Assembly: GCA_030142905.1 (NCBI GenBank)
Contig: JASJOG010000017.1
Location: 186,001-250,000, forward strand
From: Heliopora coerulea
Taxonomy: Eukaryota > Cnidaria > Anthozoa > Scleralcyonacea > Helioporidae
Reading direction: 5' to 3'
DNA length: 64,000 nt
Each line of letters begins with the position of its first letter. The stretch's first letter is position 1. The position numbers and the translations under genes are program-made. Below the pieces are notes generated by a model. The model did no database searches and was not told the DNA's origin. It saw only the letters and a program-made list of their open reading frames with translations. Below are positions 1,243 through 26,000 of the stretch, piece by piece.

Positions 1243-4200
1243 GTAAGTTAAATCATTTACGTCTGCTTCTATATGTGCTTTGTTTCTGTTCTTCTTAACC
1301 GCCAATAATGTGATTGAACTCACGCGGCTACAACTAAACTCTCACTTGTCATAGGGGCAGATATAATGAAAACAACGCATGATGTGATTACGGAGATGAG
1401 TTTCAATTGGACACTGCGTCCTACACGGCAGAGCAGCTCAAATGCTAGCTAGATTTAGTGTAAATGTCTATCCCGGAAAGTGGATGAATTCAACATGATT
1501 AAACAAGTAGAATTTATCGAATTAAAATTACCACAGTACTTAAGATCTTTTTTTGCGTTTACTCAAGAAACTACGATACTAAACTTTATAAGTTACATTG
1601 AAACAGGAATCTCTATTTACTGCTAATCGATTAGCCCTGAAGGGAATCGTTTAATTTTTTTTCCACGATCCTGGTATCAGCCAACACTTGACATACGTGC
1701 TGCCTATGAGGAAGTGACTCTATGGTAGTAATGATCTTTTAATGATACATTTGACTCATATGGGAGATTGATGATACCAAGGACGCTAGATAAACGTTCG
1801 TCAAGCTCATACTTCAGGAAAACAATTTCTGGGCCCCAGACGGGGATCAAACCTGCAACCTTCAACTTGTAATGACAGGTGAGGTCTAATCAACCACTTA
1901 CAGGAATTCAGCTTGCAAGCTAGGTATGTGCTGCTTCTGCTACAGACACCATGTTTTAAGTAATGTATAAAAAACGAGCAGGAGTGCTTTACTGGATATA
2001 AAACACTCGGCTATCACCTCATGTTTTATATCCGATAAAGCACGTACTGCGAGTTTTTTGAACGACTTAAAAACTAAACCTCTTAATGCTCAAATTCACG
2101 AAGAAAGTTTGAAAATTAATGTTTTGTAAGCCGAAAAAATTGGAGGAGGAAAGTAACTGTGTTTTTATCACATATAAAGTCATGACACGGTTATGATTTT
2201 CCTTTGTATTTTTCTCATGAATTCTTAATGAGTTTTTAATGATGTTTAAAGATACATTTTAGACATGTAGGAGCTTGAAGATGCCAAGGATGACCGACGA
2301 ACGTTCGTGCAATTGTATCATTAAACATTATTTATTTATCGTGGCTGCCGCATTGGCAGTACATATCTCAAAATTGCACGGCAATTCGCAATCTCAGTCT
2401 CGAAACTCAATGCTTAAAAAGTCTCAGTGGTTGTAATATTTTAGATGTAACTCCGGGTAATTTCTGAATATTTAATGATTCAACTCGATAAGACTCAACC
2501 TTACGGTCTACACTCAGGACTTTACTTCGCGCCCTCTTCAACAGTCAACTGTCAATCATAAACAAAAGTGAATTTCCACTACACGTGATCGCGTGATTGT
2601 CCACGTGCTTCTTAATATAATACAACACACTCCCCCCTTGATGGACAGAGGTCTATCAACCTTAAATGTAAATTCTTAGAAGTTCTCTACTTTAGCGTGT
2701 TCGACAAATTTAATTGGAAAATCAGATTGGTTGGGTTGGTTCGACTTCAATTCTACTGGATAGAGCTTCTTCAACGATCGTCTTGTCACTGCAACATTTC
2801 CTGCTTTGTTGTGATAGCGAATCTCGGCTGCGCGTACCTTTCCGTCATTTCCAGTTAAGAGTCTTTCAACCTTCGCCATAATCCAGTTTAGTCGATTTAC
2901 CTTATCTTCTTCAACGACAACAACATCTCCAACGTTAACGGTTGGTCCATTTTTGTTGCTCGGTCGGTGGTATTCTCGGAGTTGTGTAAGGTAATCGCTT
3001 TGCCACCTTTTCCAGAAATGAAGGAGAACGGTTCTTAGGTATTTCTCTCGTTTGATGACCTGTTCTTGATCATTAGAATTTGCGGTACTCGTTTCCTCTG
3101 CCAGTCCCGATGGTCGTGACAACAAACGTCTTCCAAGGACTAGTTGAGAAGGTGTTAAAGGAGTTTCACCATCCTGGTATACGTAAGTGAGTGGTCGTGA
3201 GTTCAAAACTCCTTCTATCTGAATCAGTACGGTTAATAACTCTTCATAAGTTAGTCTGGCATTAGCTAACACTTTCTTCAGGCATCTCTTCACTGATCTC
3301 ACGATTCGCTCGTAAAAACCTCCCCACCATGGAGAACGCTCCACTATGTATCTCCACTTGATTCCACGAGACGTAATGAAATTCTTCAATTCAGCTCCCT
3401 TGAACGTTTTGGCGTTATCAGAAATAACAAGGGATGGTGTTTCACGTCGACTTATAAAACGTTTCAAACTTCGGACAAATGCCATAGAGCTGACATCCGG
3501 GACAAGATCCAAGTGCACTGCTCGGCTGCTGGCGCAGGTATATAATGCAATAAACGATTTGTGCATTTCTTTCCCATTGTAAATATCCTTGACATACGGT
3601 GGTCCAGCATAATCTACACCTATTCTCGTGAATGCGAAGTCATTACTGAGTCGAAAATTGGGCAAGGGTGGTGCCGATGGTGTGCCATAAGGTGGCCCTT
3701 CCACTCTCTTACATAAGGTGCAGGTAGACAGTATTCTTTTTACCACTTGTCTCCCTTTGACAACCCAATATCGAGTGCGCAATTGGGTTAAGGTTTCTCC
3801 GACTCCGTTGTGTAACACTTCATGATGACAACGGAGAATGATTAGCTTGGTAAGATGGTGGTCGCTTGGTAGAAGGACAGGAAACTTGGATTCATAGGGA
3901 AGGGGTGCGTGGTCTAATCGTCCTCGGCAGCGTAAAAGTCTATCGTTGTCTTCAAACAGTTGCAGGGAATTCTTCAATTTGTCGTACTTCTCGAGCTTTG
4001 AGATCGAGACTTGCGCTGATCTTAACCAGATTTTCTCTGCGTTATTGATCTCTTCAATGGTAAGTTCACCATTTGAAGGGTTCAACTTCCGTCTACGGTG
4101 CTTCAAATTTTCGATGAATCTTATCACATAAGCTGTAACTCGAAATAGGGTTAAAACGTTACTGTAGCGAGAAGATTCGATGTTTTCTTCAATCTTGATA

Positions 4201-7200
4201 CTCGATTCCGTGTTCGCTTGAGCTTTTACAAGAGTGGTAGTGACTTTGACTTTTCGTTCGGTTTTCAATTCTTGATCGATTTCTTTAGGTAACTTGAAGA
4301 ATGTTGGACTGGGCCATTCATTCGGGGGTTTCTTGAGAAAGCTTGGGCCATGCCACCATTTCTCATCGTTCACTATTTGTGCGGCCGTTGTTCCTCGCGA
4401 TGCTATGTCCGCCGCGTTCTCATGTGTCGGGCAATGATTCCAGTCCTCTGGGGCTGCTAACTTGCGAATTTCCTGTACTCGATTCTCTACGAATTGCTTG
4501 TATTCTTTGTTTACGTTCTTGATCCAATAAAGGGCAACAGTGGAATCAGACCAGTACATTCCGGCATCAATTTTAATGATTTCTTGCAAAGCTTTCTTTA
4601 TGTTCTCAGTAAGTCGAGCTGCAACCAGACATGACAATAGTTCTAACCGGGGTATGGTCTGCTTGCTCTTGGGTGCCACTCGGGTCTTTGAAGCAACTAA
4701 GTTGCATTGAACGCTGGTTTCGTATTCATGACGTAAGTAAACGCAGGCTCCGTATGACGTTTCACAGGCATCTGCGAATGCGTGTAGCTGTATGGATTTA
4801 ATTCTCTGTTTTGGGGAAGGGTGGAAGTAGCACCGGTCAATCCAGATCACTTCGGCTTCTCTCAAGCTTGATAAGATCGCTTTCCACCTGGCGCAGAGGC
4901 TTGCACTCAGCTCATCATCCCACGCTACTTTATTGTTACAAAGTTCTTGGAAGAGGAGTTTCAACTGGAGAATTACAGGCGAGATCAGACCCAACGGGTC
5001 GTAGAACTTTGCAGCTGAACTTAACACCATTCTTTTAGTAGTCACGTTTTGATCAACCTCGGCTATCGGCTTGTAGAGTTCTATCCCAATCTTGTCGTTG
5101 TCAATATCCCAGGCTTGACCAAGTATTCGTGGGCAGGAGTCAAACTTATAACCAAGGGTGATTTGTGAGTAGCCTTGATCTTCTTCTACAGTCGGCAATT
5201 GTGTCTGTGGCGATTCAACGAACTCTGGGTCGGTCAAAAGCTGCTTCATTAGGTCTTTGGAATTGCTCAGCCACTTTCGCATGTTGAAACCACCTGAAGC
5301 CAATCGGTGTTTGATCTTTCTCGATAATTCTACGGCAGTTGTTACATTTTCGGATCCTGATGCGAAGTCATCTACATAGAGGGATCTCAACAACTCTTGA
5401 ACGAATTCAGGATCTTCAGTAAGATAACGGTTAACGTGATAACGAAGGGTAGCATTAAGGATGAACGGACTTGAGGTGACACCAAAGACAACTCGCGTGA
5501 ATCTCAGCGGCAAAGTTTCTGGTGTCTTGCTGAATGGGTCATCAACCCATAGAAATCGAAGAAAATCTCGATGCTCCGAGACGACTGAGATATTCAGGAA
5601 TGCCTTTTCTATGTCGGCTGTGATTGCAACTTGATGTGCACGGAAACGAACCAAAATGTCAAAAATCAGGGGAGTAAGAGGTGGACCAGCATATAAACAA
5701 TCATTCAAGCTAGGTCCTTCACTTCGAGATGATGCATCGTACACCACTCTTACCTTAGTAGTGTCTTTGTCTATTCGTACAACTTCTCTGTGAGGCAAAT
5801 AGTGCACATTTCCAACTTTCACTTCCGTTTCAGGAGGGATTCGCTCGATGATTCCGTTGTCGAGTTGGTCACGAATGATCCTGTCATATTCTCTGAGCAG
5901 GGTAGGCTGGTTCTGAAGGCGACGCAACAAGAATACTAATCTCTTCACACTTCCTGCGTGGTTGTCTGGAATCACTGGGTGATGTTTCTTGAATGGCAGG
6001 TGGGCTTCATATCTTTCGCCATTGAATTGGATCTCTTCAACAAAGTCGTCGTAAACGGACTTCTCTTCATCACGAATACCTAATGTCTCTAGGTCCCAAA
6101 ATGTCTTAAGTTGTTCTCTCACATCTGGATCAGGTTCTCGTTGAATAGGAGTGGCATCAATTCGTAGAACGTGAGTGGCATTTAGGTTAGTTGTGCAGTT
6201 CGGTTCATCATGGCAGTCGTTATTCACAGGTCCGGATAACACCCATCCAAGCTTTGTCAGGAGAGCCACTGGACCAGGCTGTGCTCCCCGTCTGGAGACA
6301 TTTGTGACAAAGTTCCAATAATAATCTGCGCCTATAAGGACATCTACTTCAGCATCTTGGGATGAAACAACTTCTTCAGCCAATGTTAAACCTTCTAAAT
6401 ATGGATATTTCTCAATTGCGATATCGATCGCTTGATTGCCAATGGGACTGCAAATCGTAGGTACACTATAGGCATTAATATAAAGTTTCAGACCATCCAT
6501 AGCTGTAATTGAGATCTGGACCATATCACACGACATTAATCTAGGAGATTCATTTGCGAATGTTTTCACCAAAAGATTGTCTGAGGTAACTGCTGGCAGT
6601 TTCAAGGCATCTTGGAGTCGTTTGGAAATATAAGATCTTTGGCTGCATGAGTCGAAAACGATACGTGCCTGCACTTTCTTTCTAGGATCGCCAGGTTTAC
6701 CAACAATCGCTCTCGCTGTCTGCAATAACACGGAAGTGCTGCTATTGATACACAACGTTGCAGATGCTCCATTTCTTGAGGACTCAGAAGTTTTCCTTTC
6801 ATCGCCTTGGCCAACTGATTTTTGGTCCTCTTTCTTTTTGACTCCTTCACAAAGGGCGACATGATGGCGATATCCACATTTTGGGCACTTTGACTTGGTC
6901 GGGCAATTACTGGCAATGTGTCCTGATCTTAAGCATCCGAAACACTTTCCCTTTTTCCGTAGTACCCATCGGCGAGCTGCTACATCAGTAACGATGTTGC
7001 ACTTGGCTGACAAATGGTGTTGGTCACAGAATGAACATACTTGCAAGGATATGTTTTTATTCCCTGAGATTAGAGATGACAAAGTGATGGGAGGATCCCC
7101 CTTCTTCTTACCACCGTCCTTTTTGCAACTAGTAGGGGAAGAAGCACTCATCAAGGTGCATCGCTCTCTTGCTTCCAACTCAGCTTTAAACTCTTTAAGT

Positions 7201-10200
7201 AGTTTGTCCATTTCCCAGTTATCTTTACCAACTTTACGACTAATTAATAACCTCATCTCTTCCGGGATCTTTGCGAGGACTAACGGAACCAAGAGTGTCC
7301 CATATGTTTCGGAAGAAACCTTTAAATTCTGGAGGCTTCTGATGTGAATGTCGATGGTATCGTACAGACGGCGAATTTTTCCCACATCGAGAATGTCTAA
7401 GACTGCGTCAAGTTTTAGTAGGGCGTCCATATGACTTGAAATAATCATCTGAGGGTTCGCAAACCTATCTTCTAAAAGTTGAACAGCTGCTTCGTAGTTT
7501 TCGTCCGTTAGTGCAAATCCTGCAATTGCTGTTGCTGCGTGACCTTCCAAAAGGCTTTTCAGATAATTGAATTTATCAACTTTTGACAGATTTTCGTTAC
7601 CATGCACCGCCGCAGTATAGCTGTCCCAAAACGATTGCCACTCTGTAGGTTTACCAGAGAATCTTTTTAGGGATAATTTCGGAAGTTTCGCTCGAATCTT
7701 CTGTTGAGAGGGTAGCTCCGTTGCAATATTAACGCTATTTGAATTAGCTTCTTGTGAATGGCTCACGTTAGGGTTTTCGGTTATTCTCAACACATTGTTG
7801 ATCTTCACAATGACTCGATTAATTGTCTCACCAAACTCGCTCGTGTTAAGTACTTCTTCGTCGATTTTTTCTTCGTCGTCGATACTCTCTAGTATGGTTT
7901 GATCAAGTGTTTCTAAGGTTCTTTTCTTCTCTTTCAGTGTGATTTTGTAGCCTTCCAATTGATCTCTTTCCGTCTGTGTTCCGCCGAACTTATCGATGGC
8001 GTCATGAGCATTTTGCATTATCTTCGTAACGAAGGATCTGTTTCCGCTTCAAATTCTCTTAGTTTTATCCAAGGACATCTTTTCTCCGCTTTTATTTATC
8101 CGACTATCGAAGGACTATGTAATATTTTAGATGTAACTCCGGGTAATTTCTGAATATTTAATGATTCAACTCGATAAGACTCTACTTCGCGCCCTCTTCA
8201 ACAGTCAACTGTCAATCATAAACAAAAGTGAATTTCCACTACACGTGATCGCGTGATTGTCCACGTGCTTCTTAATATAATACAACAGTGGTCATATGAA
8301 AGTTGCGGATTCGAGCCTCATTTTGGCTCAGAAATCGTTTTCCTTTATCATGAGATTGACAAACATTCATCTATCATGGAAGGTGTCAATTTTGCTGAAC
8401 GGAATTCCATGTGGTTAATCGATATCCATAAATTTAAAATGATTTTTATATAAAAAAAAGTCTTCTGATTGTCAGTTGAACATCGAAATTCTGAATGTAA
8501 AATTTTGGACCCTTACTTAAGCCCATCGAGACCCCGGTAAAGGTCTTTATTTTATTTAGTTGAGTTATTTTAATTTGCAGAGTTTCAAAAAGTTCCTTCA
8601 GAAAATGCCACCGCAACTAAATTCATGAGAAACTTCCTGCGCTTTACTTCAAGAACCCCAGTAGCTAAGAGACAGTCTGTAATTGAAGATATAGTAGTCG
8701 TTATGGATAGCTCTGGATCGATCGGTAGTTGTCAATTTGGCATCGGAAAGAAAGCTCTCAAAAACATGATGGACTTAGCTGGAAACGATAAAACATATGA
8801 TGCAAGATACGCTGGAGTTACCTTCTCCACATCAGCGATCGTAAACTTTATGTTTTTGCACCACTTATCAGCGGCAAACGAGATCATGAAGATTCCATAC
8901 CTCGGTGGCTCCACCAACACTCAGGCTGGACTGGTCGAAGCGAAAAAACTGTTTGACAGTCCCTCGTCAGGTAAATGTTTACCTTTAGTTCAACTTAGAA
9001 TGAAAGAATGAATGAGGGAAATAAAGGAGCAGTATGGTAAAGTTAAAATGTGAGTGAATTAAATCGAAATGTGAATGAATAAACAAAGCCACCACTTTGG
9101 ATACAGTAAATATTGTATTAAAAATTGATATAAACAGTGATTGGATCAGGTGTTAAACTGTTTGAAAATAGACAATCTTCTGATAATACATTTTTGGAAA
9201 CCTTGGATAACACAACAAATTGTTAGTTTGTAAATAAGACTCTTTTCTTCAATAGTTTTCGTATAATAGTTCACTCAACAAGAGTTTGATTATTTCATTA
9301 GGGCTTGCAAAGTCAAATCACGAGAAAACAATAAAACCCAAGGGGGGTATCTACAAGGTTTTTGTGTTTTCGAGTGTTTGGAGCTTCCTGAGGAAACACT
9401 TTAAACAAACATTTGAACTAGCTTCTCAAACGTGTATTCCCATTCATTTATTGCATGATGGTTTCATTGATATGTATACGTAAATTAATAATTGTGCTTT
9501 AGATCACTCGAAAACCTGGCGTTTAAATAAACCACAGATAATTGGGCGTGAGCAATACGTATCCGGAAATTTTAAGTTTGCAGTTGGCTTTTCACTAATC
9601 TGATTTGGAGACTGTTGGTAATGAATGTTGTAGATAAAAATATGTAGATATAAGCAGAACTGACTAGCCTGTTAAAGTAAGACGATATACATGTATGGAG
9701 AATTCTTTTTGTGAAGTACTTCACAGTGAAACAACGGGTATTGCTTAAGGAACAGCAATAGTTGTTTTTTTGGGAGAGTTTTTAGGGTTTTGCTTTGTTT
9801 TTTTCTAAAAATACAATATTGAAGAATGACATGATCAAGTATAGATCAGTAAGTTGTGATTGTTACATGGGTATGACCCGTTTGAAGTAAACATTATAGC
9901 CCAACAAGTAATTTTTAACAAAATCATAATGGAAACAATATTTTTAAAAATGTCAAAACTGACGTTTCGTTACAAAATTAGTATTAAGTGTTCAACGAAC
10001 TATTTTCTAGAAAATATGGAGATTGCGCAGCCAGGTTGAGACATGATTAATTTTGAGACACGTTCTCTGACTAAACTTATTAACTGTCGAAGACTACAGT
10101 TAGGTAGTCGAAAGCTTGTATATTTAATAAATTTAGTCAGAGAACGTGTCTCAAAATTAATCAGAACTATTTTCTGTCATAAATGTAGTTTAAGTAGTTG

Positions 10201-13200: not shown

Positions 13201-16200
13201 ACACTACAACTTCCTCCTCCCTATTTTTCATTACATTGTGTTTACTAATTTACACTGAACATCAAACTTAAACGTAACATAGACTGTCCGCTATGAAATG
13301 TTCTTACTTGAAGCGTATTTGCTTTCATCATTATACAAGGTTATAACGTATAATCGTCTATTGATTGTCAATGAAGCGATTGGGTTTTTGTCTTACTCTG
13401 CGCGGATAGCGCGGTTCTACAGGCGTATTTTCCAAGGGGCTGTTTAACCCTATTTCACATGGCATATCGGTATGCCCTTATTTCACATGGGGGGGGGGCT
13501 TTTTTGGCCCCCCCTAATTATTTTGAGAACGGGAAATGGGAAATGCATGAAACTTTGGGATATGTTAGAAAAATATATTACTAGTCAAAAAATATCAAAA
13601 TATCTACAAAAATTTTTTTCAAGTGTCTTTGCTGGGGGTCTGTTCATGTTTATATGTGGAATTTTTCAATACATTCATTACATACGTAGCTTGCATACTT
13701 TGTTCATATTGTTCTTTGACAAGATGGACAACAATGCTTAGATTTGCCAAGTTTGTTCTTTTGTTCCTTGTAATGAGGCTTTCCCTTCAACTGTTTGATG
13801 CAGTAAAAGCATCTTTTTCGATCACTTGGAGCTTCAAGTGCTGCTGGTTGTTCGACGTACTGTCACTTGTAACTTTTGTAACTTTTCACACCTTTTTCAA
13901 TACCTCAGATAAGTAGGGTTTCTAATCTGTTTTACACTTCTTTCTATACATCAAAATATCAATAATGGATTCAACTAACATTTTCATAGAAAAGGGAAGC
14001 TTTAAAGATTTGTATAAAAGAAACGTTTTGCCTGTGATTTGTATTCCACTAATTACTAATTACAGATTATACGTGAAAGTAACTCATTGTGTTTACTCCC
14101 GAGACTGCATTTTCCAGTTGAAAAAGGCAAACATAGAACTAAATTGAAGATGTAGTAATAAATCAGTGTGACAAAAAATCAAAAAAGACGTCAAAGTTTG
14201 AGAAAAACATTAGAATGTTTGAGTTCAAAAAATAACAGCCGGAATTGAATTTTACCCGCTGAAAAAAAATAAAAATGATGATTGCGCATTCAAATTTGTC
14301 TTAGACCTAAGATGTAATTGGCAGGCAAAAAAAATTCAACATTATTGTCCAAAAAATCTAATCAGACAAAAATAAAACCAAAGATTGTAAAACCGCAAAA
14401 AGTGATTTTTCACCCCCTGGCGACAAAAGTGGAATTACCCCCGGGAAACGTGAAAAATATTAAAACTTCTTTATATCAAAATAACCGCAATAAAAAAATA
14501 TTAAAAGTCACAAAATTTCAGCCGAATTGGACAAGCGGTTCAAATTTTATGAAACAAAGTATAGGTGGGGGGGCCAAAAAAGCCCCCCCCCCATGTGAAA
14601 TAGGGTTAAGACTTCTTCCTTCACTGTACTACTGGTGGACTGGTTGGGCATAGGGGGTGTTTTTAAACTCTTTTCTACAAGTCCACACGGATTGGTGGTA
14701 CACAGTGGTATGACAGGATCCATGTTTACGGTGGATGTCTCTTCAACAGCTTGAACATTACAGTCAGGGTCACCTGAACGCATTTGGTCTACGTGTCGTT
14801 TCCACTGCATGTTTCCCACTTGAACCGTATATGTGACGGGTCCAAATTTCTTCTGAATTACTCCTCTAATCCATGATGGTTTATGCGGTCTATTTCGATA
14901 ATCTCTAACTATTACCAGATCGCCAACTTGGAATGTTCGCGGTTTCTTCTCCTTCGGTGTTGATCTTTTCATGATGGACTGTTCTAAAGCTGGTCTGATT
15001 GCATCCAGCCTAGTTCTCACTCTTCTTCTAAGGAAAAGTTCACTAGGGGCAGTTCTTGTCGTACTGTAGGGTGTTGTGCGGTAAGATAGCAGAAATGAAG
15101 CAAGTTTCTCGTTCAAAGTGCCGCGTTCAGATGCCATCGTCTTCATGGCTTGTTTGAAAGTGCGTACCGCTCGTTCCGCCTCTCCGTTGGAACTCGAATG
15201 GTACGGTGCGGATTTGATATGAGTTATTCCATTTCTCTTTAGGAATTTCTGAAAATCTTCTGACACAAATTGTGGACCATTGTCAAAAACCACTTCCTTG
15301 GGAAGGCCATAGGATGAAATAAATAGCGTAAAGCGTTGATGGTACTCTCAGCAGACGTCGATGTCATCCTTAAAACTTCCGACCACTTTGAATGGGCGTC
15401 TACTACGATTAAAAACATTTCCTTCATGAACGGTTCAGCAAAGTCAATATGTACTCTTTGCCATGGTAATTGTGGCCAGATCCAAGGGTTTGCTTGAGCT
15501 TTGGGTGCTTTGGGTAACTGTTTCTTGCAGGCTTCACATGTTACCACTTTACTCTCAATATCCGTGTCTAAGTTTGGCCACCAAACGTATATTCTGGCGA
15601 GGGATTTCATTCGTACCATTCCCGGGTGGTTTTTATGTAACTCCGTGAGGATCTCTTCTCGATTGCATTCAGGGACTATTACTCTTACTCCACGCAGGAG
15701 GCATCCTTCTTCAATTGTCAGTTCTTCGCGTATGCGATAGTATGGGCGCAGTTCGTTGTCGGGGTCTCCTTCCGGCCATCCACTTCTGGTAAATTCGACC
15801 ACTCTAGACAGTAACTTCTCATTTCTAGTTGCTGCAGCGATTCGAGTAGCGGTGATGGGCAGATCATTGACTTGCATTTTGTTTACCTTCTCGGCTTCTC
15901 GAAAGAAAATACCATCACACACTTCCTCTGATGTACGTACGGGGAATCGTGAGAGGGTGTCCGCGTTCCCATTGTTGGTAGTGCGATACTTGATATCGAA
16001 CTGATAAGCTGACAGTTGAATTGCCCATCTCTGGATTCTCGACGCTGCTAATACTGGAATTCCTTTCTTTGGGCCTAAAATTAATGTGAATGGTTTATGA
16101 TTTGTCAGTAATGTAAACTTCCGCCCATATAAGTATTGGTGGAATTTCCGTATACCAAATACAATAGCCAGGGCTTCTTTTTCGATCATCGAGTAGTTTC

Positions 16201-17027
16201 TTTCCGCCGCTGTTAGTGTCCTAGAGGCATAAGCCATTGGTCGCTCAGAGGAATCTTCTTCGTTGTGGTGGGAGATAACAGCTCCTAGGCCATGTGAAGA
16301 GGCGTCGACCGCTAGAACCACAGGCTTAGTCGGGTCGTAATGGACCAATACTTTAGAAGAAGCTAGTACTTTATTGACTTCTTTGCAGGCTTGCGCACAC
16401 TTATCGTTCCATACCCACTCGGTGTCGTTGGTCAATAAATGGGTAAGAGGTTGAACCACGGTGGACATATTGGGAATAAACTTACGGTAATAATTGACAA
16501 TTCCCAGCCATCATTGTAGTTCTCTCTTATTTCTCGGGTTTTCCAATTTCATAATCGCTTCGACTTTCTTGGGAGACGGGTGAATTCCATTCTTATTTAC
16601 TTTAAAGGCAAAATATTCAACCTCCTCTTGCATGAACGAGCATTTAGAGGGTTTGAGCTTGATGCCAAAGTCATCCAGTCGTTGTAAGGTCGATTCCAAA
16701 TTCTTCTTATGCTCTTCATCATTTTTGCCGGTTACCAGGATGTCGTCAAGGATATAACCCACGCCACTGATTCCTTGTAGCACCTTACCCATAGTCTGTT
16801 GGAAGATCGCCGGTGTAGCAGCTACACCAAAAGGTAATCTTGTATATCTGTACAATCCAAGGTGGGTGTTAATAGTTACATATTTACGTGAATCTTCTTC
16901 CAAGATTACTTGTCCCCTCGCCCACCGCGCGAAGCACGGTGGGCGAGGGTACTAATCTTGACGTGCGTGGAGTCCTGTTACACTCGTGGTTACTAGGGAC
17001 AAAAATTTTCGCTTTGTGTATGTATCT

Positions 17028-17061
<34 letters not shown>

Positions 17062-20000
17062 ATGAGTAGTATGTAAAATGCGGGTTCTAGCGACTTTTTT
17101 TGTCACATTTACTTCCGGTTTCTCATCACCTGTCAATCATTCTCAAATTCCAAGAAATTACTTCCGGTTTCCTAGAACCCACTGATGACGTCATCCTTTA
17201 GTCACGTGATCAAATTCCAGGAAATCACTTCCGGTTTCCTAAAACCTGTCAATCATTCTAAAATTAGCAATGACGTCATCATTTTCCGGAATTTCCCCAC
17301 CCGTCAATCATTCACGTGGTTTCATTAACTTTATTAATGTTAATTAAGCATCCTGCCCACGAAAGTGGAATGTTTAATTCATTTTAATAAATCTAATGAA
17401 TGAATGTGAAAGAATGTGAAAAACAAACAAACGCAAAAAATCCTTTGAAATATTCACAAATATTTCAAAGGAATCAACGGGTTCTACCGACTTTTTTTCG
17501 GGATTTCTAGCGTATTTTTCACGGTGTTTTCCCACCTGTCAAATTCCAGGAAATCACATCCGGTTTCCTAGAAACCACTGATGACGTCATCATTTTAGTC
17601 GTGATCAAATTCCAAGAAATTACTTCCGGTTTCCTAAAATCTGTCAATCATTCCAATGACGTCATCAGGTTTCCTAAAACCTGTCAATCATTCCAATGAC
17701 GTCATCAAGAAAAAGCTCCACCCACTTTTCACCCAGCGGTCTACCTTTGCAGACTCATGTGAAAATTGATGACGTCATCATTGATCACGTGTCCTTTAAC
17801 TTTATTAATGTTAATTCAGCATCCTGCCCACGAAAGTGGAATGTTTAATTCATTTTAATAAATCTAATGAATGAATGTGAAAGAATGTGGAAAACAAACA
17901 AACGCAAAAAATCCTTTGAAATATTCACAAATATTTCAAAGGAATCAATCTATTTTTCTTTTTTCTTTTCTTCAATTTTTTCAAAATAATTTGATATATC
18001 AAAATATATCCATTTTAAATAATGATAATAACTGTTTGAAATTATTTTATGGTTTAAATCCAAATATATTTTCATAAGTGTCTATCATTTCATTCATGTA
18101 ATGACCATATGAAAGTGTTTCAATTTTATTTCCAAGTATTATTCTTTTATCATCTTTTGATGATAATGCAATTTTTTCAATTTCTTCTGTAAACAAATCA
18201 TGTTTTCTATGTCTTATCAAATTCATCTTTCTTATTTGTTCTTCTCCATCAAATAAACAATCTTTATAATTTTGAAATGATATATCTTTTTCAATAACAT
18301 TTTTCTTAACACCTTTACATTTTTTAGTTGACTTTTCACTTCCAAACATTTTGTAAGAATATAATTTTGCTCGTAAACCAACAAATTCTTCTATTTGTTT
18401 TCCTCCGCATTCATCTTTCATCATTCCAATTACTTTTTTGTTTAATCCAGTTTTTATTCCACTTTTATGCTCTTTTGGATAATTACTTGTATCAAACATT
18501 TTTTCAACATCTGGTGAAATATCTTTATAAAAATCTTCAGTTTTAATTTCATACATTAAACTATCAGTATCTGTAAATAACAATTTCGCATTTTCACCAT
18601 ATTTTTTCTTAATATAATTATAGTGGAAATCATACATTAAAGTTTTACTAAGATCCAATATACTCATTCCTAAATATATTGGTTTATCTAGTTTAATTTT
18701 ACTCTTATGCATATGCACCGCAATTAGATTTTCAGAAAATATAGTTCTTTTAGCAAAATTACATTTTGAAAATAATTTTAATGCTTTTTCTTGTCTGTTT
18801 ACCAATTGTATATCAACCCTGTTTCTCACATTTTCCATAGTTTTTCCAAATACAGAATTATTCATTAATTTGAAAAAGTCTTTTTCAAAATCATTTTTCG
18901 CATTTGTTCTCAAATTTGTATTTAGATCAATATATTTTTTCATGAAATTTTCTTCATAAAATTTAACACCCTTATGAATTTGAGTAATTTTTAATCCTAA
19001 TTTTTCATATAACTTCAAGTTTTCACAATGTAAAACATATTTTTCTTTATTATTTAAATTTGGAATTAATTTTTCCACTTGATTAATTTTTATTCTTTCT
19101 GGTGCTAACGAATATTCATTGTGTAAATCATGTAAATCTTTAGGATATTCTAAATCTACTTCTAATATACAAGAAATGTTTTTTCAATTTTTTAATTCTT
19201 TTTCAGTCATCCATTTGAAATTTCTAACAGGTAATTTTTCGCTCATTGCCCATCCATATAGATGAAAATTCATGAAAAAATATATTGATCTAAATACAAA
19301 TTTGAAAACAAATGCGAAAAATGATTTTGAAAAAGACTTTTTCAAATTAATGAATAATTCTGTATTTGGAAAAACTATGGAAAATGTGAGAAACAGGGTT
19401 GATATACAATTGGTAAATAGACAAGAAAAAGCATTAAAATTATTTTCAAAATGTAATTTTGCTAAAAGAACTATATTTTCTGAAAATCTAATTGCGGTGC
19501 ATATGCATAAGAGTAAAATTAAACTAGATAAACCAATATATTTAGGAATGAGTATATTGGATCTTAGTAAAACTTTAATGTATGATTTCCACTATAATTA
19601 TATTAAGAAAAAATATGGTGAAAATGCGAAATTGTTATTTACAGATACTGATAGTTTAATGTATGAAATTAAAACTGAAGATTTTTATAAAGATATTTCA
19701 CCAGATGTTGAAAAAATGTTTGATACAAGTAATTATCCAAAAGAGCATAAAAGTGGAATAAAAACTGGATTAAACAAAAAAGTAATTGGAATGATGAAAG
19801 ATGAATGCGGAGGAAAACAAATAGAAGAATTTGTTGGTTTACGAGCAAAATTATATTCTTACAAAATGTTTGGAAGTGAAAAGTCAACTAAAAAATGTAA
19901 AGGTGTTAAGAAAAATGTTATTGAAAAAGATATATCATTTCAAAATTATAAAGATTGTTTATTTGATGGAGAAGAACAAATAAGAAAGATGAATTTGATA

Positions 20001-23000
20001 AGACATAGAAAACATGATTTGTTTACAGAAGAAATTGAAAAAATTGCATTATCATCAAAAGATGATAAAAGAATAATACTTGGAAATAAAATTGAAACAC
20101 TTTCATATGGTCATTACATGAATGAAATGATAGACACTTATGAAAATATATTTGGATTTAAACCATAAAATAATTTCAAACAGTTATTATCATTATTTAA
20201 AATGGATATATTTTGATATATCAAATTATTTTGAAAAAATTGAAGAAAAGAAAAAAGAAAAATAGATTGATTCCTTTGAAATATTTGTGAATATTTCAAA
20301 GGATTTTTTGCGTTTGTTTGTTTTCCACATTCTTTCACATTCATTCATTAGATTTATTAAAATGAATTAAACATTCCACTTTCGTGGGCAGGATGCTGAA
20401 TTAACATTAATAAAGTTAAAGGACACGTGATCAATGATGACGTCATCAATTTTCACATGAGTCTGCAAAGGTAGACCGCTGGGTGAAAAGTGGGTGGAGC
20501 TTTTTCTTGATGACGTCATTGGAATGATTGACAGGTTTTAGGAAACCTGATGACGTCATTGGAATGATTGACAGATTTTAGGAAACCGGAAGTAATTTCT
20601 TGGAATTTGATCACGACTAAAATGATGACGTCATCAGTGGTTTCTAGGAAACCGGATGTGATTTCCTGGAATTTGACAGGTGGGAAAACACCGTGAAAAA
20701 TACGCTAGAAATCCCGAAAAAAAGTCGGTAGAACCCGTTGATTCCTTTGAAATATTTGTGAATATTTCAAAGGATTTTTTGCGTTTGTTTGTTTTTCACA
20801 TTCTTTCACATTCATTCATTAGATTTATTAAAATGAATTAAACATTCCACTTTCGTGGGCAGGATGCTTAATTAACATTAATAAAGTTAATGAAACCACG
20901 TGAATGATTGACGGGTGGGGAAATTCCGGAAAATGATGACGTCATTGCTAATTTTAGAATGATTGACAGGTTTTAGGAAACCGGAAGTGATTTCCTGGAA
21001 TTTGATCACGTGACTAAAGGATGACGTCATCAGTGGGTTCTAGGAAACCGGAAGTAATTTCTTGGAATTTGAGAATGATTGACAGGTGATGAGAAACCGG
21101 AAGTAAATGTGACAAAAAAAGTCGCTAGAACCCGCATTTTACATACTACTTCCATGGATTCCGGTCACTCAAAAATACCGTGTGCAAGCTCGGAGACTGG
21201 TATGTTGTTGAACAAATCGTACTTAGGTACCGTATTGAAGCAAATCTATTTGGTCTCGTTATTTTTTCCCTTGTATGGATCTCTCGCAAGTTGTTTACAT
21301 TATTTGAACACTGAAGTCAGTAAATGATTTAAGACCGGCAAAAGAAATAGCTTTCTTGGTGCATGCGGCTGGTTTCGCCACCTCAGTAACTGGACAATTT
21401 ATGACTTGACAGAGCAGTTCTCAAAGTTAGCTCCTTGGAATATGCATTTGCCAACTGTTCACTTTTTGCAGCAACGCTTTGTCTTGGTTCTTTCTGATTT
21501 ATATGAACAAAAGACGTAACGGAACTCGCTTGCTGTCAGGACATTTGCTAAGCGACTAACTGTATTAAAACGACATTCTTCGCTGAAGTTGAATAGATGT
21601 CGATTAGTATAAATCTTGGGACTTTTCACGTTGTGGTAACCACTTACCTGAGCTGCACAATCGCAGGTAAGTCTGAATCGAGTAGCTTTGAAGTACAAGT
21701 TCTGCGAACGGAATTGTTTTGAGCAGCTTTGAAAAGTAGCTTCCCGACTTCGTTCTTCCCTAAGGGAGACTTCTTGTACCAAATATTACCGCCTGGATTT
21801 TGCTGGTGTTAATTGGTAAAGTAGAATGAAGATTCTGGTTCATTCATCTCTGTACGACGATAATTTTTGAACATTTTGCAGTATTTAACCGGACAGCGTT
21901 CATGGTGAATTGTTTGGAAAGTGGGATAGAACACTCGTCATTTAGAAGAGTTGTCGAGGCCATGGCAGTCTTTGGATGCTTTCTCCGCTTTCCACACAAA
22001 AATTTCATTGCCTCAATCAGGATTTTTTCGCTATGAAATGTCACCCCATTGAAGACGTTAGGATGTATTTTTGGCTCGAAACAAAAAATGCAAGATAAAT
22101 AGCCACCAGGTAACTCGCTGCAAAGCTACTTGTTTTTGGTCACCAAATTATCCTTCGGCAAAATAGTTGTCCTCTTCAGTCTTTCTCGCTTCGAGAGTGA
22201 TGACCTTTACCGTATTCGACCAGTAATGTTTTCATCAGGATTTTAAAACCTCTCAAGAAAGTTTAAAGTCGTCTTTGTGTAAATTTACCGTTGAACCCTT
22301 TGTACTGAGGTGCCACTGAATGCTTATTTGAAAATACGCAAGAGTTGAAGTTTTGTACGCCATTTTTCTTTTTTTATTGATGTTTTACGGTGAAAAAAGT
22401 ACTTCTTTTACTTTCCTCTTCTCGTTCTTCTTTCGACAAAACTTGCACAAGGTCTGCTTGTCGTATTTTGTTTTATGTTTTGTATTTTTCGATTTTTGGT
22501 CAGCGATAAAACTGCAGAATTCGTTCATGTTTTCTTTGTTTACTTCGTCGATTTCGTAATTCGTTTCGTCTTCGTCATCAAAGTCTTGTACTTCCGGATG
22601 AATACTTAGCATAAACCCTTATCATAGCAGATCTTAAAGACATTTGTAACCAACTTTGAGGTAATGTATAATTTATCAATTTTTTAAGTCAAAAAATGTC
22701 AGAAAAATATTCAATCATGAGCTGTCCGTAATGCCGGTATCCATTTAATAATCTATGAGAATGCTCCACTTTTAAGACGGAAAATCTGTTTGGATTGTTG
22801 TTTATTTGCGGCCAAATTCTGTGTGGATTTCTTTTTTTGCATGTCGTCTTCCAGTTGTGGTCAGGAGGATTTGTCTTTTTGAGAATTTTGAAAAATTATC
22901 ATTGTTACTTGGATTCTCCAGAGATATATTGGAAGGGTGGGCGAGGGGTTGTTGCGTGCACGTATTTCTAGTTGATATGCGTGTGACAAGTCAAGTTTCG

Positions 23001-26000
23001 AAAACTTTTTTCCAACATTTAATTTACTGAATATTTCTTCAGCTGTGGGAAGTGAATACTCAGGCACATCCAAGACTGGGTTGATCGTGACTTTGTAATC
23101 TCCACAAATACGAACGGTCTTGTCTGGTTTCAACACGGGTACTATGGGTGTAGCCCAGTCAGAACTTGATACTTTCTCTAACACTCCTTCTTTTTCCAAT
23201 CGATGCAGCTCATCTGCAATTTTATCTTTCAATGCGAATGGTACAGGCCTTGGCTTAAAGAACTTTGGTTGACACTCTTGCATGACTTTAAGACTTGCTG
23301 TTATTCCTTTTACTGTTCCTAGGTTACCCTTAAACACAGAGTATGATTTCGACAACTCTTTAGCATTCAGACTGGCTGCTTGGGTGGTATAACGAATAGC
23401 CTTCCAATTTAACTTGAGGCAGTTCAACCAGTTCCTTCCAAACAATGCTGGTCCCCTCCCTTTTACCACTAACAGGGGTAACTTTGCCTTCTGTGATTCA
23501 TATTGAACCTCAACTGTTGCTTCACCAAATACTGGTACAGTCTCTCCAGTATAAGTTTTCAAAATCACTGAGGGATTCTTCAAAGGTGTAACTTTTTTAA
23601 ATTTATTATTGTAAAGAGACTCTGAAATTATTGATAGTGAAGCTCCTGTGTCCAACTCCATTGGTATTGGCTGGTTATTAATCTTTATCTGGAGCATGAT
23701 TTCCTTTCTTTCATCAGATTTTATGGTATAAATAGGCCATTCTTCAATAATCTCTTCTTCAGAATCCTTACTGAGCTCAGTACACCTCCCCTTTACTAAT
23801 TTGTTAACTTTGGAAGATTTCTTCTTAATCCTCCCTTCCTTTCTTGGGGATTTTCCCGTTTTTTCTTTAGGCTTATCAGATTCATCCTTTTGATTATTAG
23901 GTTTGCCTCGTTGTTTGTTTGGGCACATCTTACTCAAGTGTCCCAAATTATGGCAAGTGTGACATTGACTTTTCTTATGGAAGCACGAATCAGCACTATG
24001 GTTAGATTTACCACACCGAAAACAGTGAAATGATATTTTGTTGGTCCTTTCCGTAACATCACCGGAAAGCTTGTGCGCCTCTCTCGCTGCCATCTCCATA
24101 CTTAACGCGATGTCAACTGCTTTCTTTAGCGTTAGGTCAGCCTCAGATAACAACTTTCGTTGGATTATCACTGAGGATAGCCCACAGACAAATCGATCAC
24201 GTAATGCATCATCCAAGAAAACAGCAAATTGGCAATGTTCACTAAGCTTACGTAATTCTGTCAAATACTGGCTTACCGTCTCTGAATCTTTCTGCTTCCT
24301 TTGGTGGAATTTAAAGCGTTCGGCTATCACCAATGGCTTCGGCTTCAAATGATTTCGAATCAACGTTTTAAGTTCAGTATACGTCTTCTCGCTTGGCTTA
24401 GCAGGGCTAACTAGGTTACGAACTAATCCATAGGTCTTATGACCACATACTGTTAACAGGATAGCTCTTTTCTTTTCTTCGTCTTCTACATCATTTGCTA
24501 CGAAGTAGTGCTCTAGTCGCTCCATATATTCGTCCCAATTCTGGTCTGTATAAATATCGAATTCTTCAATCTTTCCAAATACTGCAGCCATTTGACGTGT
24601 TTCTTTTAGTAGTTTACAATGTCAGGTGTCGTAATCCGATTCTCGTCGCCACTGTTGTGTTTGGACCGAGTAATATAACAAAATACACCACTACTAAATG
24701 ATTTATTCATCACAACACAAGAAACAGGCGGGAAGACAAAACTGTCCTCAACAAAACCGGAACCACGCGGTCTCCGGAAGTTGTATTACCGGAAGTAAAC
24801 ACTACAAGTTTCATCTTGCTTTTACGTGGAGATTTTGTGACCCTTCTAGGAGGGCTGAATCTACAGTTCATCCAGTTGTTTATCCCAAAATCAAAATTTT
24901 ACTAATTTTTCCATAAACCTTAGTTTGTGGCGGCCTTACCATATATCTAAAAGTTTTCTATATATCGGCAAAAGTTTGGTTCCACGAACACTAAGTGAAA
25001 GAACTTTGGGCATTATTTTTAAAACAGTATTTTTTTAAAGAAAGAAAATGTTGTCCAAGCTTATTTTGACAGTTGAGTTTCATTTTCAGTTGCCAGTTTC
25101 AAACATCAAAGCGCCCGCAGCTCACATGTGTGAACTCTTCGTTTCGTTCAAAAGCTTTTGTCACTTTTCGTCTCATTCTTATCGGTGCCTTTCAGCATAT
25201 TGTACTCTTGCTTCTGTCTTTTTCTTTCTCACCGCTTTTATAATCGCCTTCATTCGTTTTCTTGTTCTTTTTAAGCGTGAATTCCTCGTGTAAAAAGCAC
25301 TTTTGTCTGTAAACGTTGTCTAACAATTTCATTTCGTCTATTATGACTACCTAGGAACCTTGATACTTGATACTTGGTACCTATCTACACATATACAAAA
25401 TTAAAAATACACACTTATACACATAAACACTAATACACATAGGTAAACATACACACACACAGATTCACACACATACACACAAATAAATAAACAGAGGTAT
25501 GCACTGAGAAATTTTGATCGCTTGGTTACTTCATATGTAAATGGTCTCCAGGCGAATTGATCTAACTAATCTTGCCCGCTTGGGCGAGGTTTTTAAAACG
25601 CTCTGTCACCAATTATGGCCACCTATTTTTTGCAAAAGTTTAGCTTTCAAAGCTGCATCTACCATACGAAATAATTCATTCAGCTGTTCTGTGTATGTTA
25701 CTGACTTAGTAATGAAACGTTAATATTATATGTTTTTACACCATAATGTCTCCGTTACGATTTTGTCGATAACGAGACTCAGATTGTTTTATTCGTCTGG
25801 CTCCTTGTTATCAATGATGTAATATTTATGATTTCAATGGAAGAAAGAAAACTGCACTGGACTTTGCCATACTGTTTTAGTCCAAGATACGTTGGTATCT
25901 TAACTTGGATTTTAAGGTTGCCGAGTAAAGGTAGTTTGGTTTGACTGCCCACATAGGTACAGTATCTAGAAAACCAAAGAAAAATCTCAGAAATCTCTAT

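Follow-up and report, generated by a model that had tools for sequence, protein, structure and literature searches.

The stretch analysed here (the window) comprises 64,000 nt of the genome of Heliopora coerulea, C79:186001-250000 in an assembly of 430 Mb and 769 contigs. At 17065-21150 it contains a 4,086-nt element that is its own mirror image except for a central loop. We find that this element is a non-autonomous palindromic derivative of the Polinton/Maverick elements, which were reportedly described by Kapitonov and Jurka in 2006, and that it consists of two PolB ends, those carrying the DNA polymerase gene, joined head to head. Because probes for integrase, ATPase and capsid genes found none in it, we file it as a non-autonomous derivative rather than as a Polinton proper. 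The features of the element are as follows (window coordinates).

17059..17064, no strand: left 6-bp target duplication TCCATG, read from the sequence
17065..18955, + strand: left arm, with the (AGT)2 terminal sequence, the subterminal region and the 3′ part of polB (coded on the − strand)
17325..17477, + strand: 153-nt subterminal repeat, copy 1 (mirror copy at 20738-20890)
17796..17948, + strand: 153-nt subterminal repeat, copy 2, 99% identical (mirror copy at 20267-20419)
18047..19078, − strand: open frame of 343 amino acids, C-terminal part of a Polinton DNA polymerase, with an in-frame stop upstream in the loop (by eye)
18956..19260, no strand: unpaired loop, in which the polB of the left half is carried on to the LYGWAMS region
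19261..19263, no strand: junction, the left half being contiguous to 19263 and the right half starting from 19261 (aligned to the C148 relative)
19261..21150, − strand: right arm, the left arm inverted, terminating in (ACT)2
19272..20168, + strand: open frame of 298 amino acids in the right arm, C-terminal part of the same polymerase
21151..21156, no strand: right 6-bp target duplication TCCATG, read from the sequence

Anatomy of the window element

Aligned without gaps, the arms (17065-18950 and 19265-21150) show three mismatches (18797, 18909 and 18947) in 1,886 nt and leave an unpaired centre of 314 nt; if one 1-nt gap is permitted, the arms extend to 17065-18955 and 19261-21150 (around 1,890 nt, 99.8% identity, four differing columns) and the centre shrinks to around 305 nt. 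An earlier note on this DNA had described a 4086-bp palindrome in exact register, and the arms do pair in exact register, though their identity falls short of perfect. Across their outer 1,732 nt, a span that takes in the terminal repeat, the two arms are the same out to the tip, and all three differences fall within the innermost 158 nt (p = 6e-4, post hoc). The termini, AGTAGTATG and CATACTACT, are of the form (AGT)2//(ACT)2. Immediately outside them stands TCCATG on both sides, as the earlier note had read, the chance of a 6-bp direct repeat at a fixed offset being around 3e-4. On the left, a TA microsatellite forms the end of the flank and runs into the duplication, and the flanks, compared over 1.5 kb on each side, have no match to one another. 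The 153-nt subterminal direct repeat of the arms contains a 30-nt hairpin, and when the genome was queried with the arm, positions 147-971 were mostly without a match outside the window except for short pieces.

Both arms correspond to the PolB end of a Polinton, with polB truncated in each half. Alignment to C148, one of the relatives listed below, shows that polB of the left half is unbroken through the loop to 19263, in the LYGWAMS region, which we take to be motif A of PolB, and that the right half begins at 19261; there is therefore a single junction. About 2 bp of sequence are shared at this junction, and a 1-nt deletion lies close by. The centre, which had been proposed to start just after motif A, instead ends at motif A of the left half.

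Because Pfam has no model that matches the fragment or three of its homologues, we assigned it to PolB, of which the window holds a C-terminal fragment only, through relatives with a fuller gene order, through L001 and through the motifs KLMNNSVFGK and FTDTDSLMY, which presumably mark it as PolB. L001 is an IMG/VR contig that encodes a 46% identical relative of the fragment together with an rve integrase and an A32-type ATPase. The closest homologue by identity is P0008 (92% over 77% of the fragment), and among the 120 homologues listed of 8,000 scored, one bears an organism name, the sea anemone Actinostola; DTDS is invariant in the alignment. Searches of PHROGs and PDB with the fragment returned nothing informative, and a structure model of it was too poor for use (predicted local distance difference test, pLDDT, 42.8). 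Among viral contigs, the polB query found no relative and the alignment query only the distant L001, and the subterminal DNA pattern had no match in viral contigs or in the genome contig collection. The earlier identification of the element as a Polinton derivative, and as a palindrome of one end, is supported.

Further palindromic Polintons in the same genome

The earlier note had proposed a search for other palindromes with different 6-bp duplications. This search was positive at four more loci of the same genome, where palindromic elements of 9.7-11.4 kb have their own 6-bp duplications (three perfect, one matching at 5/6 positions). The arm query gave inverted pairs at three further places, and the fourth was found by reading inward at C35.

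C148:149496-160562: arms of 4.74 kb, 99.6% identical; duplication ATCCCC on both sides
C75:186766-197664: arms of around 5.2 kb, 99.8% identical; duplication AACGCT
C162:78225-87898: arms of around 3.9 kb, 99.6% identical over 3,856 aligned columns, with an additional indel of around 108 nt in the outer terminal repeat; duplication TAAACA
C35:2123168-2134521: arms 88% alike over 3.5 kb; duplication GGGGGA/CGGGGA

Ordinary Polintons are abundant in the home genome. Six end pairs, read out of around 12 visible, span 16.0-17.8 kb and have terminal repeats of 226-623 nt that are 84-99.6% identical; their 6-bp duplications are perfect in five and carry one mismatch in the sixth, and 11 of the 12 ends begin with AGTAG, the remaining one with TGTAG. 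The arms of the palindromes thus measure 1.9-5.2 kb as against 0.23-0.62 kb for these terminal repeats. A 16-nt end pattern (up to four mismatches) matches all 28 related loci, seven of which are arms of other palindromes, and 25 of the 28 begin with AGTAGT. When single-polB loci were probed inward, 20 of 21 continued with the same neighbour genes, and C472 showed no marker. Integrase matches lie inside four of the six ordinary elements read (C241, C228, C27 and C35:883112-899135), and integrase relatives occur at at least 129 loci (129 of 1,527 candidates scored). In the five palindromes, the L001 integrase probe, which is only around 28% identical to the genome's own integrases, found no integrase, and the likewise distant L001 probes for capsid and packaging ATPase genes found none of these.

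To gauge frequency, three polB queries were pooled, each with 40 scored rows (of 692, 650 and 616 candidates; 16 and 41 secondary rows were dropped from the 692- and 616-candidate queries, respectively). Among the resulting 77 distinct polB-end places, five pairs converge within 14 kb, and no pair is arranged the opposite way. Five palindromes therefore stand among around 72 sampled PolB-end elements, both counts being incomplete because most candidates were unscored and the clade around C421 was left out. A restriction of palindrome formation to PolB ends was considered and is unestablished (chance around 0.10, by hand); none of the 40 non-PolB ends scored (from 456 candidates, with the removal of one secondary row) formed an inverted pair within 25 kb.

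Some features of these elements and their relatives stand apart from the palindromic arrangement. An eIF2-beta/eIF5-like protein (PF01873, E = 3e-25 to 7e-28) is encoded in the C27 and C241 Polintons, where its gene adjoins the non-PolB terminal repeat (L066:40-576 and L061:448-900), and in the C162 palindrome, where it lies inside the arm between the terminal repeat and polB (L036:2224-2844). Ordinary Polintons also encode a protein that starts with TMTGDLDMG and matches LamG weakly (E = 7e-4, short of the family cut-off; L041:488-1516 and L040), possibly a surface or fibre protein. Two same-strand polB matches around 4 kb apart (C634:113899 and 117676) possibly belong to a nested, split or direct-repeat element. 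Among the flanks of three palindromes (L032-L037), those of C75 match each other at 84-89% over around 0.9 kb and are satellite-like, those of C162 match over 72 nt at 99% and those of C148 at 73% over 381 nt; the insertion targets of these three may be repeats.

Origins of the palindromes

Four of the five palindromes have two arms that are nearest to one another on the polB tree, and the label 'palindrome' needs five changes, at least three of which are forced by supported branches; three forced changes could equal one gain and two losses, and the tree alone is not proof. Arm identity within palindromes is 99.6-99.8% in four and 88% in C35, compared with 88-94% between palindromes (85-95% with C35 counted), and the junctions differ among the window, C75, C162 and C148/C35. 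Because the arms agree within palindromes and less between them, and because the junctions differ, these sequence comparisons indicate that the palindromes probably arose several times, with a likely total of four origins.

C148 and C35 have both arm boundaries mapped to within 4 bp of each other, and their flanks do not match. Of the 40 loci scored (171 candidates) with a 701-nt query spanning the C148 junction, C148 and C35 alone matched it over its full length. Since the two share a junction at unrelated loci with different duplications, a palindromic lineage appears to have inserted more than once, one palindromic element being the probable source of both insertions. A weaker alternative is that palindromes formed recurrently at the 46-bp tandem repeats where these arms end. 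Within C35, the arms are 100% identical over a 565-nt stretch near the centre and 73-94% identical in the more distal blocks, and the right arm groups (100/100) with C82, C140, C557, C45, C129 and C183 on the polB tree; an exchange with another Polinton seems to have affected the outer part of one arm.

The centres of C148 and C35 both hold a gene for a Pox_A22-type Holliday junction resolvase, which is split in C35. In C148 it lies at C148:154643-155173, and seven other loci genome-wide, including a few ordinary Polintons, carry it. As a palindrome-specific gene it was rejected, as its eight loci (14 of 14 candidates scored) include only one palindrome lineage; among them are C701, with ordinary gene order, and C107, where it lies between two terminal-repeat matches.

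Formation of the window element

We lean, with modest confidence, towards a palindrome that predates its insertion: linear Polinton DNA would have undergone template switching or folded back, and the integrase of a helper would have inserted the product. Linear Polinton DNA would be replicated from its ends by protein-primed, strand-displacing synthesis; occasionally replication would switch template to the complementary strand, or a broken end would fold back, and synthesis would return to the end at which it had started. The product would have two competent ends, and a loop if the switch had been asymmetric. This molecule, or else a shortened form derived by deletion from a larger palindrome, would be inserted via the integrase of a full-length relative, leaving TCCATG on both sides. 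We favour this order of events for the window because the arms show no difference in their outer 1,732 nt; the terminal repeats of the six full-length pairs, by comparison, differ by 0.4-16%. The single junction with a loop is as the copy-back origin proposed in the earlier note predicts, yet it does not distinguish that origin from repeat-mediated conversion in place or from deletion within a larger palindrome.

Several observations weigh against formation before insertion. Single-junction topology fits copy-back and repair in place equally, and the microhomology at the window junction amounts to only about 2 bp. This junction was seen at only one of 40 scored loci (616 candidates), so mobility as a unit is extended to the window copy from its relatives. 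The full-length parent Polinton that the earlier note had suggested seeking did not emerge: home-genome searches found no close full-length parent of the arms, the best other match to an arm being 94% over 915 nt and the inner arm pieces matching at 95% over 364 nt and 98% over 160 nt. In C75 the arm differences cluster in the terminal repeat (five of eight events in the outer 260 nt; p = 1.5e-5, post hoc), as they do in C162 (six of eight events within 95 nt of the end; p = 5e-9, post hoc). Such a pattern is expected if the interior was copied in place after insertion, with the original terminal repeats left outside; later arm-to-arm conversion could mimic it. Finally, the model gives no explanation for the clustering of the window differences in the innermost 158 nt, behind which polishing of collapsed arms is a possibility. 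An accumulation of copying errors on a newly made right arm was rejected, since it is the left arm that carries the derived state at 18797 and the right arm that does so at 18909; the differences therefore mark neither arm as the copy.

These points bear on two other histories. An inserted full-length Polinton may have been rebuilt in place, a later break being repaired via the terminal repeat, with the PolB end copied across and the rest deleted; TCCATG would then be the duplication of the original insertion. Such repair would give the same anatomy with a single duplication and would consume the parent, in keeping with the failure to find one, and ordinary elements carry the diverged terminal repeats that it would leave outside; for the Galileo element of Drosophila, recombination between terminal repeats has been suggested as the mechanism behind extended terminal repeats (PMC3573991, in excerpt). 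C75 and C162, with differences mostly in the outer terminal repeat, fit this history better than the window, whose arms show no difference anywhere in the terminal repeat, the tip included. It also sits poorly with C148, in which differences are spread evenly (two of 21 in the outer 260 nt), and with the one junction that C148 and C35 have at unrelated sites, and for the window we consider it rather unlikely. We hold as similarly doubtful that the window junction involved no fold-back and arose by microhomology-mediated internal deletion of a 10-11-kb palindrome (terminal inverted repeat (TIR)-PolB-centre-PolB-TIR), the lost segment reaching from motif A in the first PolB to a point midway along the second, a history compatible with insertion as a palindrome. 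Larger palindromes do exist in this genome, and the roughly 2 bp shared and the 1-nt deletion at the junction are as in end joining; however, no larger palindrome with arms near those of the window was found, the four others being at most 94% identical over the polB part of the arm.

An assembly or amplification artefact, in which a chimeric inverted read was joined between two copies of one terminal repeat, appears very improbable. The position of all three arm differences near the unique centre is what short-read polishing of collapsed arms could give, but the differing flanks with a 6-bp duplication, contigs that reach 7 Mb, four further palindromes with their own duplications and the 12% difference between the C35 arms, beyond any read artefact, speak against it.

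Comparison with known systems

The window element shares with Polinton/Maverick elements the (AGT)2//(ACT)2 ends, the 6-bp duplication, terminal inverted repeats and a polymerase fragment that probably belongs to the same family, the end motif and 6-bp duplications being those given for vertebrate Mavericks in the available part of PMC8097293. In contrast to them, it is one end duplicated head to head, with PolB truncated in both halves and no detectable integrase, ATPase or capsid gene.

Palindromic defective genomes are known from adenovirus, phage phi29 and yeast linear plasmids; the replication of adeno-associated virus (AAV) is not protein-primed. Snap-back genomes occur in AAV as well (PMC8235507, in part). 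Like these genomes, the window element has one end in inverted duplication around a single loop, with a centre that in such molecules is symmetric or asymmetric and with two competent ends. Unlike them, it is inserted in the genome of an animal and flanked by a 6-bp duplication of integrase type, is recurrent and is known here from genomic sequence alone. By analogy, the window element may be a snap-back defective genome that became inserted.

The nearest transposon case is that of the extended inverted repeats of Galileo. In its '2RT' copies, internal sequence of one side has been recruited into both inverted repeats (38 of 170 copies, according to excerpts of PMC3573991), and the window element likewise has both TIRs extended by the inner sequence of one side, with one duplication. 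Galileo, however, is a P-superfamily element, and the window arms make up nearly the whole element. C75 and C162 hint at formation after insertion of the Galileo type; C148/C35 and the window do not.

In linear Streptomyces replicons, arm replacement gives both ends the same long inverted repeat. The window element resembles these replicons in having the same long inverted repeat at both ends; the Streptomyces process differs in operating at the scale of a bacterial chromosome and in not being transposed.

In the open-access literature, judged mainly by titles and the openings of abstracts, no description of palindromic Polintons was found, and the stem 'palindrom' is absent from the accessible portions of three papers on Polinton-type elements (PMC12721341, PMC8097293 and PMC12220804). 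Because virus-like elements with terminal repeats of up to 8 kb were retained in PMC12220804, as far as its available text goes, similar palindromic forms may sit unremarked in such sets.

Implications and surroundings

The protein-primed replication of Polintons as free linear DNA has been inferred from their genes. Maverick particles were so far unobserved according to the part of PMC8097293 at hand. The five palindromes suggest that faulty copying or recombination of Polintons repeatedly yields two-headed forms still able to insert. Palindromes of the replication end that recur as insertions would record, in the genome, Polinton replication and its errors, and would make free-DNA replication testable with long reads. 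They add a route to short non-autonomous Polinton forms, and C35 suggests arm exchange between different Polinton lineages.

More tentatively, palindromic Polintons could be a standing class of sub-viral parasite that multiplies extrachromosomally, inserts by a helper's integrase and exchanges arms with ordinary Polintons, an idea that we rate as rather less likely than not. Each would carry the replication end twice, and the larger ones two polymerase genes as well; multiplication on their own or a helper's polymerase would liken them to the defective interfering genomes of protein-primed viruses, and C148/C35 would be a lineage that persisted.

Retrotransposon genes occur in the surroundings of the window palindrome. 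Gag/pol-like retrotransposon fragments flank it at 14547-16468 and 22861-24591 (both − strand), and a BEL/Pao-type polyprotein is encoded at 2676-8018 (− strand) in one open frame of 1,780 amino acids; because this frame is single, the element is probably young.

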